From the NCBI GenBank assembly GCA_002713215.1, contig PAVO01000018.1:1-64000 (forward strand): DNA of 64,000 bases, in the 5' to 3' direction. Each line of letters starts with the position of its first letter. Position 1 is the stretch's first letter. Origin of the DNA: Crocinitomicaceae bacterium. GTDB taxonomy: Bacteria; Bacteroidota; Bacteroidia; Flavobacteriales_G; Salibacteraceae. The notes under the pieces were generated by a model that did no database searches, was not told the origin of the DNA, and was given only the letters and a program-made list of their open reading frames with translations. The translations under genes and the position numbers were made by a program. Positions 3,368-17,364 of this stretch are shown piece by piece.

Positions 3368-4675
3368 CTACCTTAAAATATGCATGCGCTCTGAGTCCAT
3401 TTTTATAAAGGTAAAGAGCAGTATGGTAAATGACCACAAACTTGATCCCCCATAGGAAAAGAAGGGTAATGGAATTCCAATAACCGGTGCTAATCCAATG
3501 GTCATTCCAACGTTTATGGCCAAATGGAAGAAGAATATGGAGGCCACACAATAACCATAAATCCTTGAAAATTTGGAACGCTGTCGTTCTGCAACGATGA
3601 TAATTCGGAATAAGAGGTAGACAAATAGAAAAATAACGGTAAAAGTTCCGATAAACCCCCACTCTTCACCTACTGTACAGAATATAAAGTCTGTGCTTTG
3701 CTCAGGAACAAAGTCATACTTGGTTTGAGTCCCTTGTAAAAACCCTTTTCCGAACCCACCACCTGAACCAATGGCGATCATGGATTGATGTACGTTGTAC
3801 CCCGCACCAGTGGGGTCCGATTCTATTCCCAGTAACTCATTGATTCTGGCCTGTTGGTGTTTTTGAAGAATATTGTTGAAGGCATAGTTTACGGCGAATA
3901 TGTATCCGGTAATTACTAAGAATGAGCCTAAAATAACCCACTTTACTTGTTTTATTTTTTTGAACTGCGCGTATAATACCAGGCAGATTAACCCGATTAC
4001 CACAACCATCATGGTTTGGCCCGGTAGAACAATATCATAGGGAAGTTCAATGGTAGTGGTATTTAAAAGTAGAGCCACTACAAATAGAACGGCGCCGCCA
4101 AGCCCTATGAGCAAAATATTACCTGAAAGCCCTTCCCGATACATAACAAAAATGAAACTTGCATATACCAGCACGGAACCGGTGTCGGGCTGCAATAAAA
4201 TCAACGCTGCCGGTAGTATCAAAATTAACATGGCCTTGAGCCGGGTTAAAAGCCCTGAGAATCGCTTACCCAATGTAGACAGATAAAACGTTAAGGCCAA
4301 CGAAGTTCCAAATTTTGCTATTTCGGATGGTTGAAAAGAGAACCCACCGAAGGTAAACCAGGACTTGGCCCCCTTTATTTCCGTACCAACAACCAAAACC
4401 GCTATTAAAAGAAAAATACAAAACCCGTAAATGGGATAGGCCAGTCGACTAAAAAACCGTGGATCGAGCATAAGGATAACCCAGGCCAAAAAACACGAGG
4501 TAGCAATCCAAAGCATTTGCTTCCCATACAATTGGCTGATATCGAAAATGGATTGATGCTCTTCATTGAATGTGGCTGCATAAATATTGAACCAACCCAT
4601 CAATACCAGGATTCCATATAGCGATACGATAATCCAATCAATATCTGACCATCTACTGCTCCTTCTTTCCATCAT
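3368..4675 (-). CDS. rodA: Rod shape-determining SEDS glycosyltransferase RodA
   Basis: This 435-residue SEDS protein has about ten membrane helices. It carries the conserved FQPSEIAK segment (about 115-122) and the GIPLPFFSYGGSS motif near the C-terminus. RodA polymerises lipid II into glycan strands for lateral wall growth and works with its cognate transpeptidase PBP2. It overlaps the 3' end of mrdA by 23 bases, the last step of the purH-mreBCD-mrdA-rodA gene run. An alternative start one codon in (second Met) is equally possible. Identity is firm. Confidence 0.95.
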   Translation of the reverse strand: MMERRSSRWSDIDWIIVSLYGILVLMGWFNIYAATFNEEHQSIFDISQLYGKQMLWIATSCFLAWVILMLDPRFFSRLAYPIYGFCIFLLIAVLVVGTEIKGAKSWFTFGGFSFQPSEIAKFGTSLALTFYLSTLGKRFSGLLTRLKAMLILILPAALILLQPDTGSVLVYASFIFVMYREGLSGNILLIGLGGAVLFVVALLLNTTTIELPYDIVLPGQTMMVVVIGLICLVLYAQFKKIKQVKWVILGSFLVITGYIFAVNYAFNNILQKHQQARINELLGIESDPTGAGYNVHQSMIAIGSGGGFGKGFLQGTQTKYDFVPEQSTDFIFCTVGEEWGFIGTFTVIFLFVYLLFRIIIVAERQRSKFSRIYGYCVASIFFFHLAINVGMTIGLAPVIGIPLPFFSYGGSSLWSFTILLFTFIKMDSERMHILR

Positions 4676-6488
4676 AAATATCTAAGAAAACAGCATCCAG
4701 GATTCGCTTTTCTTTTTCAGGGCGTTTCACTTCTCCAGTTAGGTACTTTTCTATCATTAAACTCGAAATTGGTGCAGCCCAGGTTCCACCAAAATCGGAA
4801 TATTCTACATAAACTGCAATAGCAATTTTTGGGTTTTCCCGCGGTGCAAAAGCGATAAAAACAGAATGATCGGGCCAGGGTTCATTTTGCACTGTTCCCG
4901 TTTTACCGCATACTTCAATGCTATCCATTCTAGCCCTTCGAGCCGTTCCACCATCTTCATTTACAACTTTGTACATGGCCTCAATTACCGGGTCAAAGTA
5001 CTCCGGGTCTACCTCTGTTTCATTCCGAATCGTAAACTCAGGTCTCTTTACTGAGTCTGCCCCAATCGATTTTATTAAATGAGGTTCATAAAAATAACCT
5101 CTGTTTGCTATGGTAGCTGCCAGGTTAGCCATTTGTATGGGCACTACCAACATTTCACCTTCACCAATACTTACGGAATAAATGGTAGAAAATGCCCAAC
5201 GATACTCGCCATACCAACGATTGTAAAAGGCAACATCCGGTACGTTACCTTTTTTTAGACCGGGTAGGTCTGTTTTTAGCTGAACTCCCAATCCAAACTT
5301 TTTTACCCGTTCCTGCCACAGGTTTAAACCATAAGCTGCGTCTTTAAAAATACTTGAGTATTTTCCACGCTGTACAAGTCGCTTAAAAACATTCCAGAAA
5401 TAAGGATTGCATGAATGTTGAATGGCTGGCACTAAATCATCGTTGGTGTGAGACCCGTGGCAACCTATGATTCCCCGGTTGCAGCGAAACCGTGTCTCGG
5501 TTGTTATTACTCCTTCGTCCAAAGCAACCAACGATTCAACCAACTTAAAGATAGACCCCGGACGATACATGGCATTGATGGATCGATTAAAAAGCGGGTT
5601 TAATGAGTCATTGGCCTGTAGCATTTTATAATTTTTGGACCGTGGCCTTCCTACCAACAAGTTAGGATCGTAACCGGGGGAAGAGACCATGCTTAATATT
5701 TCACCCGTTGATGGTTCAATGGCTACAATACTTCCTCGCTTATTTCTCATAAGCTGCTCACCATACATCTGCAATTCCCTGTCGATTGTAGAAATCAGGT
5801 TTTCACCGGCGATGGGTAGAGTATCGTATTTGCCATTCATATAACTGCCCTTGGCCCGATTGTGAACATCAACCAACAACACCTTTCTGCCCCGAACTCC
5901 CCGGAGTCTTTTTTCGTATTCTTTTTCCAGTCCTCTTTTGCCTACGTAATCGCCTTTTTGGTAGTAGCTGTCTTTTTTTAAATCTCCCGGCGTAGCCTCA
6001 GAGATATAGCCCAGTACATGAGCAGCAGCCGACTTTGGATATTTTCTTAAGGTTCTTTTTTCTCCGAAAAACCCAGAAAACTTGTACAACTTTTCTGATA
6101 TGGTTGCCCACTCATCAGCAGGAATTTGTTTTTCGAAAACAGAAGCCTTGAACCTACTATAGCTGGTAGACTTGGCTATTTTTTCATCGAAGGCCGAGTC
6201 AGTAATTCCCAGTAAATTACAGAAAGCCAGGGTATCTAGTCTTTTTATCCTTTTTGGAATTACCATAAGGTCGTAGGCCGCTTCGTTATAGACCAATAAT
6301 TCATTGTTTCTGTCATAAATCAACCCGCGCACCGGGTATTGGGTAACATAGCGAAGTGCCTGGTTTTTTGCGGATAATTTATAGGAATCGTCGATTACCT
6401 GAATGTAGAAAAGACGCCCAAGAAATATGAGGGATACGGTCAGAAAAATACCCAATACTACGTATCTTCTATTATTAAACGGGTTCAT
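4653..6488 (-). CDS. mrdA: Penicillin-binding protein 2 (elongation transpeptidase)
   Basis: This is a 611-residue class B PBP. It has an N-terminal membrane anchor (about 9-30), a dimerisation/pedestal domain (about 50-220) and a transpeptidase domain with all three motifs: SxxK as SIFK (Ser312, Lys315), SxN as SCN (359-361) and KTG (529-531). It cross-links peptide stems in the periplasm as part of the elongasome with RodA and MreBCD. Its start overlaps the mreD stop by four bases. The length is ordinary for Bacteroidota PBP2. Confidence 0.95.
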   Translation of the reverse strand: MNPFNNRRYVVLGIFLTVSLIFLGRLFYIQVIDDSYKLSAKNQALRYVTQYPVRGLIYDRNNELLVYNEAAYDLMVIPKRIKRLDTLAFCNLLGITDSAFDEKIAKSTSYSRFKASVFEKQIPADEWATISEKLYKFSGFFGEKRTLRKYPKSAAAHVLGYISEATPGDLKKDSYYQKGDYVGKRGLEKEYEKRLRGVRGRKVLLVDVHNRAKGSYMNGKYDTLPIAGENLISTIDRELQMYGEQLMRNKRGSIVAIEPSTGEILSMVSSPGYDPNLLVGRPRSKNYKMLQANDSLNPLFNRSINAMYRPGSIFKLVESLVALDEGVITTETRFRCNRGIIGCHGSHTNDDLVPAIQHSCNPYFWNVFKRLVQRGKYSSIFKDAAYGLNLWQERVKKFGLGVQLKTDLPGLKKGNVPDVAFYNRWYGEYRWAFSTIYSVSIGEGEMLVVPIQMANLAATIANRGYFYEPHLIKSIGADSVKRPEFTIRNETEVDPEYFDPVIEAMYKVVNEDGGTARRARMDSIEVCGKTGTVQNEPWPDHSVFIAFAPRENPKIAIAVYVEYSDFGGTWAAPISSLMIEKYLTGEVKRPEKEKRILDAVFLDIYDGKKEQ

Positions 6489-7000
6489 AACACGCGCCTC
6501 TGCTTGAATGTTAGAAACTGTGCAATAAGAACCAACAGGTAAGTAAAAGCAACCGACGCTAACGCCCTGCCCAGGGTATAAAAGAATTCTGACACCCTGA
6601 AAACCTCAACAAAGAAAAGGAAGAGGTGGTGGCAGGTAATCATAATGAGTGCATACACCAAAAACCAGTTAATACCCATGTGCGACATATCGGGTGGAGT
6701 CCCAGATGGAAAGCCATCCCTGGGCGCCATTAAGGAAAGCAGATAGGGTCTGGCAAATGCTAAGAAAACAGAAGCTGATGCATGCATTCCCCAGGTGTGA
6801 CTAAACATGTCAACGCCCATACCCAACATAAAACTAAGCCCAAGTACCAGCGAAGGATTAGCTTCAATAGGAAATAGAAGGATAACCAACACGTATAAGT
6901 AGGGTGTTACGAAGCCAAAAAGGTCAACGTTATTCAAGATTAACCCTTGCAATAAAACAAAGAATACCATGCGAATACCAATGATAATATACTGTCCCAT
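6485..7000 (-). CDS. mreD: Rod shape-determining protein MreD
   Basis: This 171-residue protein has about five or six hydrophobic helices, including an early LFGFVTPYLYVLVILLFPIE segment typical of MreD in this phylum. Position is the strongest support: it sits between mreC and mrdA, with a one-base overlap to mreC and a four-base overlap to mrdA. MreD is an inner-membrane part of the elongasome whose exact role is poorly defined. MreD sequences diverge quickly, so the call leans on synteny. Confidence 0.88.
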   Translation of the reverse strand: MGQYIIIGIRMVFFVLLQGLILNNVDLFGFVTPYLYVLVILLFPIEANPSLVLGLSFMLGMGVDMFSHTWGMHASASVFLAFARPYLLSLMAPRDGFPSGTPPDMSHMGINWFLVYALIMITCHHLFLFFVEVFRVSEFFYTLGRALASVAFTYLLVLIAQFLTFKQRRVL

Positions 7001-7827
7001 TATTCCTCTTCCAGGGTTTCTATTTGTTGTTGTTCAATTTTGAGTTTATTCCGAACCACATAAACATACGATATATTACCAAAATCTACCGATAGGTCAA
7101 TGTTTATCGCCTGAAAATCGGTACCCTCAATCTTTTCAAAATCCCTGACGGTGCCAATAAGTACATCGGGTGGAAATACGGTTCCTGAACCCCTGGTAAC
7201 CAAAGTATCTCCAACTTTTAGAATTACGTGTGCAGGAATATCATCGAGCTGTGCTACCTTTGGATTACTTCCGTCCCAGGTTAGTATACCAAAGTAATTA
7301 TTTGACTTTAAACGCGCACTGACTTTGGTGTCTTTGTGCAATAAGGAAATGGCAAACGAATAATTGGTAGAGGTGGTCTTAACTATTCCCACAACACCGT
7401 TATCACTTATGATTCCCATTTCAGGCATAACATCGTTTCGCTCTCCTCGATCCAGGGTTAAATAGTTGCTTCGCTTGCTGGAAGTACTGTTAATTACCTT
7501 GGAAGAAAGGAATTCGTATTGCAACAAATGCGCGGAATCATTAAAAAATCGCACATCGGGTGTGAGCGAAAAATAAGCAGTTTGGGCTTCCGATCTCAAC
7601 CGTGCGTTTTCTTCTGACAGGGATTTGTTTACTGCCTTTAGTTCAATGTATTCTTTTGCTTCATTCAGAGTTTGGAAGGCATCTCCGCTCATCTCGTTTG
7701 CCGAATCCAGAAAATTGGCTTTGTGGAAACTATTGTTTTGAATAAGGATGCCAAAACAAACAATTTCAGCGAATACAAAAAGCAGGATAAAATGGTACTT
7801 CCAAATAAGTTGTATCAGGTTTCGCAC
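7000..7827 (-). CDS. mreC: Rod shape-determining protein MreC
   Basis: This 275-residue protein has one N-terminal membrane helix (about 10-28), a coiled coil (about 55-85, with ELKAVNKSLSEENARLRSEA) and a periplasmic double beta-barrel domain. Conserved MreC features include DRGERNDVMPEMGIIS and GVVGIV near residues 125-150 and the VLIGTV segment near 225. MreC bridges the cytoplasmic MreB filament to PBP2 in the periplasm. It lies 17 bases after mreB and overlaps mreD by one base. Confidence 0.93.
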   Translation of the reverse strand: MRNLIQLIWKYHFILLFVFAEIVCFGILIQNNSFHKANFLDSANEMSGDAFQTLNEAKEYIELKAVNKSLSEENARLRSEAQTAYFSLTPDVRFFNDSAHLLQYEFLSSKVINSTSSKRSNYLTLDRGERNDVMPEMGIISDNGVVGIVKTTSTNYSFAISLLHKDTKVSARLKSNNYFGILTWDGSNPKVAQLDDIPAHVILKVGDTLVTRGSGTVFPPDVLIGTVRDFEKIEGTDFQAINIDLSVDFGNISYVYVVRNKLKIEQQQIETLEEE

Positions 7828-13450: not shown

Positions 13451-13540
13451 GGGGATATTAACAACCAACTATTAACTCAATTTTCATTTCGTCGATATTT
13501 TTTGCATTTAACCGGTCTACTTTGGCAAAAAATTAGTCCG

Positions 13541-15451
13541 ATGAGATTCTTGCTATTTACCGCTTTTTATTTTACCTTTCTTGGACTACAGGCACAATCA
13601 AAACAAGCAACAAAAGCCACCGCATTGGTTCAGGAAGCTATGCTTCTGGAAACGGGCATGGACATGGCGAGTGCCTTAAAACTATATAGGAAGGCTGTAA
13701 AAGTAGACCCTACTCTATCCCTGGCCTGGTATCAACTCGGAGTGGCATTGAGAAAGAATGCCGAACCCACTAGCGAGCAGGTTACTTGTTTTAAAAATGT
13801 GGTTGTGCTGGATAGTAATTCTAAGAATGGAATGAATTCTATTGGCAACCTAAGTGCCATCTACAATGACAATGGGATATTTGACACATCGCTATATTAC
13901 TACAAACGTTACATCAACCACGAGAAACTACACCCAAAACGAAAAGAACAGGCATTAGCTTCTATGCCTAACCGTGAATTTGCAGCCAAGTCGTATAAAC
14001 ATCCTTTAAAAATAGACCCCTGGCCTTTGCACAATTGGATCAATGAAGAAAACTCGCTTCAATATTTTCCCATTCTAACAGGTGATGAAAAGAAGATGCT
14101 TTTTACCAGAAGAAACAAAGGTTCGCAAAATGAAGATTTGTACATTTCTTTGTTCCTGGGAGACTGGCAGGAACCGGACAAACTACCGGGAACCATTAAT
14201 AGTCATGAATCTGAGGGAACAGCAACTATTTCCGCAGATGGTACTACCATTGTATGCAGTTATTGCGGAGACCTGAGGGAAAACTTTGGCAATTGTGATT
14301 TGTATTATTCTACGCTTAAAGGCAATAAGTGGAGTAAACTTAAAAACCTTGGGGCTGATATCAATTCGGAGGCATATGAATCTCAGCCATCGCTCTCCGC
14401 CGATGGTAGAACTCTATATTTTGTAAGCGACCGGGAAGGAGGTATTGGTGGGCTTGATATTTATGTTAGTCACAAAATTGATGAGAATCATTGGGATACA
14501 CCTGTTAATCTAGGTTCGCTAATTAATACCGAGGAAAACGAGGGTTCTCCATTTTTTCATCCCAACGGAGTCTCACTTTTCTTTGCTAGCAAAGGCCATG
14601 TAGGCATGGGTGGTTACGATCTTTTTCTAAGCGAAATGGAAGAAGGCAAGTGGACCGAACCGAGGAACCTCGGCTATCCAATTAATGACCAAAACAACCA
14701 ACTTTCATTATTTGTAAATGCGACAGGCGACAAGGGATATTTTAGCAAGGAAGAATTCAGTGACCAATCCATGACTTCGAACCAATCCAGGATTTGGACA
14801 TTTGATGTACCGCCTGAACTAAAATTAGGACATCGTAGTAATTACGTTCACGGAAAGGTTTTCGACAATATCACCAAGAAACCTATCGAAGCTTCTTTGA
14901 AACTGGTAAATATTGAAACAGATCAAACCATTGGTCAGGTCAGTTCAAATTTACTCAATGGAAAATATTTAGTAATGCTAGCCGAGGGTGCAGAATATGC
15001 CTTTTATGCTGAAACTCCCGGTTATTTATTTAAGAGTATTTCTTTTAACTACAAAGAGAAAAGGGATTTTGAACCCATTGAATTGGACATCTTCCTGGAT
15101 CCAATTATCAAGGGCATTACAGTTCAATTAAACAACATCTATTTTGAAACTGGAAAAGCCGTTTTACTCAACAAATCCAGAACGGAACTGAATAAGTTAT
15201 ACCAACTTATGGTCAAAAACCCAACCCTGAATATTGAATTGGGTGGCCACACGGATAACGTCGGAAGTGATGAAACCAACCTAACTCTTTCCCAAAAAAG
15301 AGTGGACGCAGTTAAAACCTACCTTGTGAAAAAAGGAATTCCATCCTCTCGAATGACAGGTGTAGGTTATGGCGAATCAAAACCAAAGGCCAGCAACGAT
15401 TCGGCACAAGGAAGAAAGCAAAACCGAAGAGTAGAGTTTACGGTTATGTAA
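13541..15451 (+). CDS. TPR/PD40/OmpA envelope protein, PorE-like
   Basis: The secreted protein has about 636 residues. It has a signal peptide (MRFLLFTAFYFTFLGLQAQS), TPR-like helices (about 30-110), a WD40-like PD40 beta-propeller (about 150-400, repeats such as GTATISADG, QPSLSADGRTLYFVSDREGG and GSPFFHPNG), a carboxypeptidase regulatory-like domain (about 435-520) and a C-terminal OmpA domain (GGHTDNVGS, QNRRVEF). This order matches PorE, a peptidoglycan-linked type IX secretion accessory. However, similar proteins are multi-copy in the phylum, and no lipobox is visible here. I chose the ATG at 13541 because it begins the signal peptide. It converges with the M56-amidase gene, one base apart. 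Confidence 0.85.
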   Translation: MRFLLFTAFYFTFLGLQAQSKQATKATALVQEAMLLETGMDMASALKLYRKAVKVDPTLSLAWYQLGVALRKNAEPTSEQVTCFKNVVVLDSNSKNGMNSIGNLSAIYNDNGIFDTSLYYYKRYINHEKLHPKRKEQALASMPNREFAAKSYKHPLKIDPWPLHNWINEENSLQYFPILTGDEKKMLFTRRNKGSQNEDLYISLFLGDWQEPDKLPGTINSHESEGTATISADGTTIVCSYCGDLRENFGNCDLYYSTLKGNKWSKLKNLGADINSEAYESQPSLSADGRTLYFVSDREGGIGGLDIYVSHKIDENHWDTPVNLGSLINTEENEGSPFFHPNGVSLFFASKGHVGMGGYDLFLSEMEEGKWTEPRNLGYPINDQNNQLSLFVNATGDKGYFSKEEFSDQSMTSNQSRIWTFDVPPELKLGHRSNYVHGKVFDNITKKPIEASLKLVNIETDQTIGQVSSNLLNGKYLVMLAEGAEYAFYAETPGYLFKSISFNYKEKRDFEPIELDIFLDPIIKGITVQLNNIYFETGKAVLLNKSRTELNKLYQLMVKNPTLNIELGGHTDNVGSDETNLTLSQKRVDAVKTYLVKKGIPSSRMTGVGYGESKPKASNDSAQGRKQNRRVEFTVM

Positions 15452-15452
15452 T

Positions 15453-16889
15453 CTAATACTTTGCCTTTTCATTCCTTAATTCTAAGAGTTTCTTGTAGAT
15501 TTCCCTTGCAATTTTATCCTGTTGGTCAGGGTTGCTGAGTAGAGATTTGTCTTTTTTGCTGTTCAAGTTTCCCAAGGTTAGTAATACACCCGGTGAACTT
15601 AGATCGGTTAACACTTTAAAATTTGCGGGACGTGGCTCATTCTTAGGCTTAAGCTTTCCAATACCGTCCTTTAGTAGCATTTGAGCATACTTTTTAGATT
15701 TTTCACCCTTGGCATGAAATGCATTAACTTCAGAATTAACATTGCTGTTTGGATTACCATCAGAATGAATGCTAAGCATTAAATCACATTCTTTATTGTT
15801 AGCCATTCGAACTCGATCGTGCAGGCTTATAAATTCGTCATTAGCCCTGGTTAAAATTATTTCCACCTCCCCTCTTGTACTCAATGCTGAAATTTTCCTG
15901 CAAATGGAAAGGCTAATTTCTTTCTCCAAAATCTCATGATTATGAAACCCCGGGTCTTTTCCTCCATGACCTGCATCCAGCACCACTACAAATGGTTCAT
16001 ATGCTTGATTCTGAAAAGAGTTTAACACTAATATCGTAACCAATAGAAGCATTGAAGCTACAATTTTAGTAATGCGATTGAATCGCTTCGGCTCAATTTT
16101 TCCCATCATTTTTATTCTGTTTTTTATTTGTATATAACTAAAACTACTGGCAATTGGTGGCGCATTTATTCCAGTGACGGCATCGATTATGGCATTCATG
16201 TAATCCTTAGGGTGCCCCAAGTTGTTTGTTAGAATTTGATCTACCTGATACTCGTGATTTTCCTTTACCGATTTTTTAAAAAACCACATAAAAGGATTAA
16301 ACCAGAATAAGCATGTAATTAATTCGACAAGCAAAATGTCAAAACTGTGAAATTGGCTTGAATGAACTTCTTCGTGTAGGAATACATATTCCGATACCTC
16401 TTTCGACTCAAATTTTTTTCGATCAAGAAACAGGTAATGAAAAAAACTAAAAGGGCTGATTGGTTTATCCAACAACACAATTGAAAGTTTTCCTCTTCTT
16501 GTGCTGGAATTGCGTGTAGAAGACAAAATTGAATATAGGTTTCTTAAATAAAGAAACAATAGAATTCCCGATACCGTCAGATATAAAAGCAAATAAACGT
16601 TTGTTGGAAAAATTGAATGTTCAATGGGGGCAACTTCATGAATCTCCAGAACATTGGTATTTTCTTTATCGGAGTTTAAGGCTGGTAAGCTTATTACAGC
16701 ATTCAATTGCTGTACGGGTTTGGGGAGGAGAACTTCAAACTTCAGGATGGGTGTTAATAAGCTGAGTACTACCGATGAAATGAGGAAGTAACGTGTAAAG
16801 CCAAACAATTTGCTTCGCTTTAAAATTAAGTAGAATATGAGGTAGACAACTCCTGAAAGAACCAGGGTCTCTGTTATATATTGTATCAT
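15453..16889 (-). CDS. BlaR1-like M56 metalloprotease fused to a degenerate Amidase_3 domain
   Basis: This 478-residue fusion begins with a BlaR1/MecR1-type M56 protease: membrane helices at about 5-22, 35-50 and 98-115, the zinc motif HEEVH (172-176) and NHEYQVDQ (211-218). A further helix (about 274-292) leads to a periplasmic N-acetylmuramoyl-L-alanine amidase domain (about 298-475). There the zinc ligands are present (His308 in DAGHGG, Glu322, His375 in SIHSD). At the position of the family's catalytic Glu, in the segment normally reading VLVELGF, this protein has Thr438 (VLLTLGN). In BlaR1, signal binding outside the membrane activates the M56 domain to inactivate BlaI. Here the dead amidase may be the peptidoglycan or muropeptide sensor. 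It overlaps the BlaI-like gene by four bases (ATGA). Confidence 0.85.
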   Translation of the reverse strand: MIQYITETLVLSGVVYLIFYLILKRSKLFGFTRYFLISSVVLSLLTPILKFEVLLPKPVQQLNAVISLPALNSDKENTNVLEIHEVAPIEHSIFPTNVYLLLYLTVSGILLFLYLRNLYSILSSTRNSSTRRGKLSIVLLDKPISPFSFFHYLFLDRKKFESKEVSEYVFLHEEVHSSQFHSFDILLVELITCLFWFNPFMWFFKKSVKENHEYQVDQILTNNLGHPKDYMNAIIDAVTGINAPPIASSFSYIQIKNRIKMMGKIEPKRFNRITKIVASMLLLVTILVLNSFQNQAYEPFVVVLDAGHGGKDPGFHNHEILEKEISLSICRKISALSTRGEVEIILTRANDEFISLHDRVRMANNKECDLMLSIHSDGNPNSNVNSEVNAFHAKGEKSKKYAQMLLKDGIGKLKPKNEPRPANFKVLTDLSSPGVLLTLGNLNSKKDKSLLSNPDQQDKIAREIYKKLLELRNEKAKY

Positions 16890-17266
16890 TTAGACCCTTT
16901 TTTCTTATTAATTTGAGATTCTACCAAGCTCTTCAATTCATCCAATTCTTCAACGGTTAAATCTGTTTTAGAGGTAAAAAACGATGCAAATTGCGAAGGA
17001 GATCCATTAAAGAATTGAGTAACTACTTTCTTAAGGTGTGAAGAAAAATAATCCTCCTTGTTTAGAATAGGAAAATATTGCTTGTCGCGACCCAGTTTAT
17101 TAAATCCAATATATTTTTTGTCTACCATTCTGCTCAAAAGTGTTGCTATGGTTGTATAAGCCGGCTTAGGCTCTGGAAAAAGCTCTACAATGTCCTTCAT
17201 GAATCCTTTTTTGAGTTTCCAGAGAAACTCCATAACTTCAAGTTCAGTATTGTTTAATTCTTTCAT
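16886..17266 (-). CDS. BlaI/MecI/CopY-family transcriptional repressor
   Basis: The protein has about 126 residues. The N-terminal winged helix begins MKELNNTELEVMEFLWK and includes the recognition-helix region AYTTIATLLSRMVDKKYI. The C-terminal dimerisation helices contain DLTVEELDELKSLVE. BlaI-type repressors bind TACAnnTGTA operators as dimers and are inactivated by the partner M56 protein. I chose the ATG at 17266; an upstream in-frame extension would run through the operators and promoter. The gene overlaps its M56 partner by four bases. Two matching operators lie just upstream, so autorepression is very likely. Confidence 0.9.
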   Translation of the reverse strand: MKELNNTELEVMEFLWKLKKGFMKDIVELFPEPKPAYTTIATLLSRMVDKKYIGFNKLGRDKQYFPILNKEDYFSSHLKKVVTQFFNGSPSQFASFFTSKTDLTVEELDELKSLVESQINKKKGSK

Positions 17267-17268
17267 TT

Positions 17269-17301
17269 CTACAAATGTAGTTTTACTACTACAAATGTAG
17301 T
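17269..17301 (-). promoter_or_regulatory. Twin BlaI-type operators overlapping the promoter
   Basis: Two perfect palindromes lie 20 bp centre to centre, two helical turns apart: CTACAAATGTAG (17269-17280) and ACTACAAATGTAGT (17288-17301). Both have the TACA-nn-TGTA core bound by BlaI/MecI repressors. On the minus strand the distal copy contains TACATTTG (17299-17292), an exact -7 element, with a TTTG 18 bases upstream as a candidate -33 element. The proximal copy ends two bases before the ATG. A bound repressor should therefore cover both the -7 element and the start region. Confidence 0.8.
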
Positions 17302-17364
17302 AATAAAATATTGCCGACAAAAAAAGCCAACAATAAGTCGACTTTCTTATTAAACAGTTGCGGG

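Follow-up and report, generated by a model that had tools for sequence, protein, structure and literature searches.

Within the window, by which we mean the whole 64,000-nucleotide stretch of DNA analysed here, the open reading frame at 15453–16889 on the minus strand encodes a 478-aa protein that starts with ATG and has no internal stops (Table 1). Pfam placed Peptidase_M56 (PF05569) at residues 159–262 (E 4e-15) and Amidase_3 at residues 302–467 (E 1e-35), both above the curated cut-offs; together with HEEVH at 172–176, these matches agree with an earlier note on this DNA, which had described an M56 protease joined to an Amidase_3 domain. HEXXH and ExxxD are the gluzincin motifs that define the BlaR1 active site (PMC9834060), and the presence of both alongside the profile match assigns the protein to Peptidase M56. 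Beside the second motif, A216V was found in the window protein only, among the fusions compared.

The AF2 model of the whole fusion was of moderate confidence (mean pLDDT 75, with residues 51–95 below 50). Its M56 half superposed on BlaR1 (8exs) with Z 18.9 over 224 residues at 3.3 Å, supporting the previously claimed BlaR1-like layout with an amidase in the sensor position. The amidase domain superposed on 4rn7 (Z 27.2, 179 residues, 1.7 Å) and on CwlV (1jwq, Z 26.6), and the profile match, the fold match and the H/E/H zinc ligands place it in the Amidase_3 fold family. A penicillin-binding sensor domain of the BlaR1/MecR1 type is absent, the C-terminal domain being Amidase_3 and Pfam returning no transpeptidase match in the protein. 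Because the amidase begins a few residues past the last transmembrane helix, it should act near the inner membrane.

Table 1. Features of the fusion gene, its repressor gene and their operators in the window.
Feature	Position	Strand	Evidence
M56 - TM - Amidase_3 fusion protein, 478 aa	15453..16889	-	Pfam, AF2 model, fold matches
HEEVH 172-176, M56 zinc motif	16362..16376	-	Sequence; H172, E173 and H176 invariant in alignment A1
E213xxxD217, second gluzincin motif, third zinc ligand E213	16239..16253	-	Sequence; E213 and D217 invariant
Last transmembrane helix, residues 269-293 in model	16011..16085	-	AF2 model; putative membrane placement
Amidase_3 domain, residues 299-474	15468..15995	-	Pfam, alignment to solved amidases, fold matches
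Zinc ligand H308	15966..15968	-	Alignments to solved amidases and fusions
Zinc ligand E322	15924..15926	-	Alignments to solved amidases and fusions
Zinc ligand H375	15765..15767	-	Alignments to solved amidases and fusions
E387, column Gly in 25/27 relatives	15729..15731	-	Fusion alignment
T438 (ACC), catalytic Glu position	15576..15578	-	Glu in 27/27 other fusions
BlaI-type repressor, 126 aa from likely ATG at 17266	16886..17266	-	PF03965 Penicillinase_R, E 1e-26; conserved upstream in relatives
Operator 2, AACTACATTTGTAGAA, abuts BlaI start codon	17267..17282		Sequence and comparison with relatives
Operator 1, TACTACATTTGTAGTA	17287..17302		Letter-identical upstream of BlaI in 7 relatives

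The BlaI gene overlaps the fusion gene by ATGA, and a BlaI gene lies directly upstream of the fusion in nearly all relatives with upstream sequence. Upstream of BlaI, TACTACATTTGTAGTA is a 16-base palindrome identical in the window and seven relatives, and most fusions of the ~480-aa type occur as a BlaI-fusion pair under this conserved operator; variants of the second operator copy are present in two relatives. An adjacent Penicillinase_R gene with palindromic operators upstream identifies a BlaI/MecI-type pair, so that the comparison with BlaR1/BlaI drawn in the earlier note gains a BlaI gene and its palindromes. With both domains in one protein and BlaI directly upstream, the locus is an M56-Amidase_3 module.

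Alignment with solved amidases confirmed that the three zinc ligands are kept and that Thr438 replaces the catalytic Glu, as had been proposed. The stretch around this position, aligned end to end, reads LLTLGNL in the window protein, LIECGFL in 4rn7 and LLEVGYL in CwlV (1jwq), and the G[FY]xxN that usually follows the catalytic Glu reads GN441LNS444. The window amidase thus has T438 where active enzymes carry a catalytic Glu on the last strand, and, taken alone, it has probably lost normal catalysis. Substitution of the same Glu in CwlD (E199A) abolished function with normal levels of the protein and its partner (PMC8496864), and this mutant would be the nearest experimental parallel for the window member. 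A state that lacks Glu and retains the zinc ligands would suit a binding-only domain.

Besides the window protein, 27 distinct proteins of Bacteroidota were found to join M56 to Amidase_3, in protein and profile searches that took in ~1,500 look-ups of Bacteroidota genomes and a single scan of GTDB contigs. These fusions are sparse, with 5/397, 15/249, 3/42 and 2/46 genomes in four groups, and fall into two types: proteins of ~480 aa, including the window member, and a single family (f37) of mostly 640–1010 aa with a C-terminal Plug and sometimes TonB_C in those scanned. Four fusions (L108, L110, L112 and L114) carry a TonB-receptor Plug domain in addition to M56-Amidase_3, and L110 and L112 also TonB_C, unusual architectures in which a wall enzyme is joined to TonB parts. 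A pattern scan of viral contigs found no relative, and the matches on plasmids were all distant: none reached 60% identity, and one covered at least 80% of the query at 22%.

None of the 27 other fusions has lost a zinc ligand or the catalytic Glu. In L004, which shares its family with the window's genome, the stretch reads VLLELGYLSN, compared with VLLTLGNLNS in the window. The earlier note had proposed a dead-amidase sensor and suggested tabulating the residue aligned with Thr438, with a usual Glu among homologues to count as refutation; that tabulation speaks against the general claim. Since the others have Glu, the fusions are not a family of dead-amidase sensors, and a dead amidase as a family rule was rejected; what stands of the idea is the particular case, in which Glu was lost and the zinc ligands were kept. 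To judge from the sequences compared, the loss is a lineage-specific step taken on an ancestrally complete amidase, private among them to the window lineage.

Neighbourhoods compared in eleven genomes over 13–22 kb have only BlaI and the fusion in common, with no conserved third gene beside them, and what is conserved is a pair of genes set in unrelated surroundings. The convergent neighbour at 13502–15451, a likely peptidoglycan-binding envelope protein with TPR and PD40 repeats and an OmpA domain, is not conserved beside the module, apart from L145, which has a partial match. Genes for a PBP2-like transpeptidase and MreC (elongation machinery) lie at 4653–7827, some 8 kb away, and for these a conserved link was not seen.

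In the window's own genome the strict operator core is confined to the module locus, apart from one isolated site at chance level, and the circuit thus appears self-contained. A search for a wider regulon by strict cores in this genome and 11 others gave 6 sites outside fusion operons versus 9 in the reversed control; as the outside sites are at control level, the repressor's clear target is its own operon. One of the 6 belongs to an operon in genome G369 that encodes an M56 protein with a C-terminal Peptidase_M23 (LytM-type) domain (L016, contig C4) and has this BlaI operator core, ACTACATTTGTAGT, as well; the fusion operon of G369 itself has no strict core. A second M56-M23 protein is L014 (G261 C1). 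With M23 in these sister proteins, M56 is joined to different wall hydrolases. The window's genome also encodes a second M56 protein (L002, G000 C5:81650-82405 +), in which TonB_C stands at the place of the sensor.

For receptors that signal by repressor cleavage, the solved example is BlaR1. By analogy, the extracytoplasmic domain of the fusion, with topology taken from homology to BlaR1, would be a membrane-tethered peptidoglycan amidase, acting near the inner membrane on glycan that bears stem peptides, which it would engage or cut. A signal would then pass through the last transmembrane helix to the cytoplasmic M56 site, which would cleave BlaI and induce the operon, and thereby the tethered amidase that the operon encodes. 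As the induced product in most members is a complete amidase, sensing and output may be one, and in these members the amidase probably serves as both. In the window member Glu has become Thr with zinc ligands, fold, M56 site, BlaI and operators kept, and the domain would most likely bind its wall ligand without hydrolysis. With no target outside the operon found in the strict-core search, a pure sensor here would control only itself.

We accordingly weigh, with the scales about level, a self-regulated BlaI/M56 module in which a tethered peptidoglycan amidase would replace the penicillin-binding sensor and the window member would act as sensor or regulator only, binding without hydrolysing. Wall-fragment sensing is plausible for the whole fusion family. 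More tentatively, and with rather more doubt than belief, the fusions may be transmembrane peptidoglycan receptors of Bacteroidota, in which a zinc amidase would be the ligand sensor of a BlaI-cleaving protease; the window member would have shed catalysis and would show the pure sensor role, and the M56-M23 proteins would be its parallel for other wall bonds.

The unusual residue might instead mark early decay: hydrolysis would have been the real output of the module, now unneeded in this lineage, and Glu would have been lost by neutral drift before loss of the amidase half. The confinement of the change to one lineage and the joint alteration of several active-site-loop positions (E438T, N441, S444 and G387E) are in line with this. 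In a leave-one-out comparison, however, the window amidase lost only G387 and E438 among 21 conserved columns, leaving 19, and intact fusions lose 0 to 5; the zinc ligands are kept too. When branch lengths for amidase and M56 were fitted separately on one topology, the window terminal branch gave an amidase/M56 ratio of 0.77, a value that falls comfortably among those of the other fusions and shows no acceleration of the amidase relative to M56. These two results argue against decay of the domain as a whole and for a change concentrated at the active site; the reading frame stays open throughout, and BlaI and the operators are intact. We regard early decay as unlikely, if the strongest of the alternatives. 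Slightly less probable still is that the amidase is cargo or output and not a sensor, M56 and BlaI answering a different signal that arrives via the membrane part, and setting the amount of tethered amidase. The complete active site in the relatives, the M23, TonB_C or Plug parts at the same place in other M56 proteins and an operon that is its own only clear target would all fit; yet the same position in BlaR1 holds the sensor (PMC9834060), and pure cargo would leave the persistence of a member lacking the catalytic residue unexplained.

Continued amidase activity, with another acid such as E387 or zinc-only activation of water in place of Glu, appears improbable. At residue 387 the window protein has gained a Glu where Gly is normal, but L117 has both a Glu in this column and the catalytic Glu, so compensation is not clear and E387 as a compensating acid is not supported; the CwlD mutant also speaks against it (PMC8496864). 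Least credible by far is a sequencing or assembly error at codon 438, which is known from one genome only. ACC differs from the Glu codons GAA/GAG at all three bases, making a single sequencing error unlikely, and neighbouring positions have changed too; on the one open frame and this three-base difference, a chance or frameshift artefact was rejected.

Should wall hydrolases indeed occupy the sensor position, a single protein could let bacteria monitor the condition of their peptidoglycan, and the fusions offer a natural comparison separating sensing from cutting, with one member lacking the catalytic residue and 27 retaining it. M56 receptors, Amidase_3 enzymes and inactive hydrolase regulators are already known. 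A review mentions M56 and M23 in one protein, giving no function (PMC9662197), and no paper on M56-Amidase_3 fusions was found in the open-access literature.

Compared with BlaR1/MecR1 and BlaI/MecI, the window system shares the M56 protease, transmembrane helices, an extracytoplasmic C-terminal domain, the adjacent Penicillinase_R gene and palindromic operators. It differs in having Amidase_3 as the putative sensor instead of a penicillin-binding domain, in a repressor gene that comes first in the operon and in the absence of a detected beta-lactamase or other target gene. With the Amidase_3 enzymes CwlV, CwlD, AmiA/AmiB/AmiC and LytH it has in common the fold and the three zinc ligands (Z 24–27 to solved members), whereas it lacks their catalytic Glu and is fused to a membrane protease. 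The M56-M23 fusions L014 and L016 resemble it in joining M56 to a peptidoglycan hydrolase, although theirs is an M23 endopeptidase. Precedent for an inactive hydrolase in regulation comes from the enzyme-dead regulators CwlM of mycobacteria and EnvC, whose regulatory role is established (PMC4946905) and which likewise have a hydrolase fold without the full catalytic set. Unlike CwlM, which is cytoplasmic and has lost the zinc-binding histidines, the window domain keeps its zinc ligands, loses Glu and is fused to M56.
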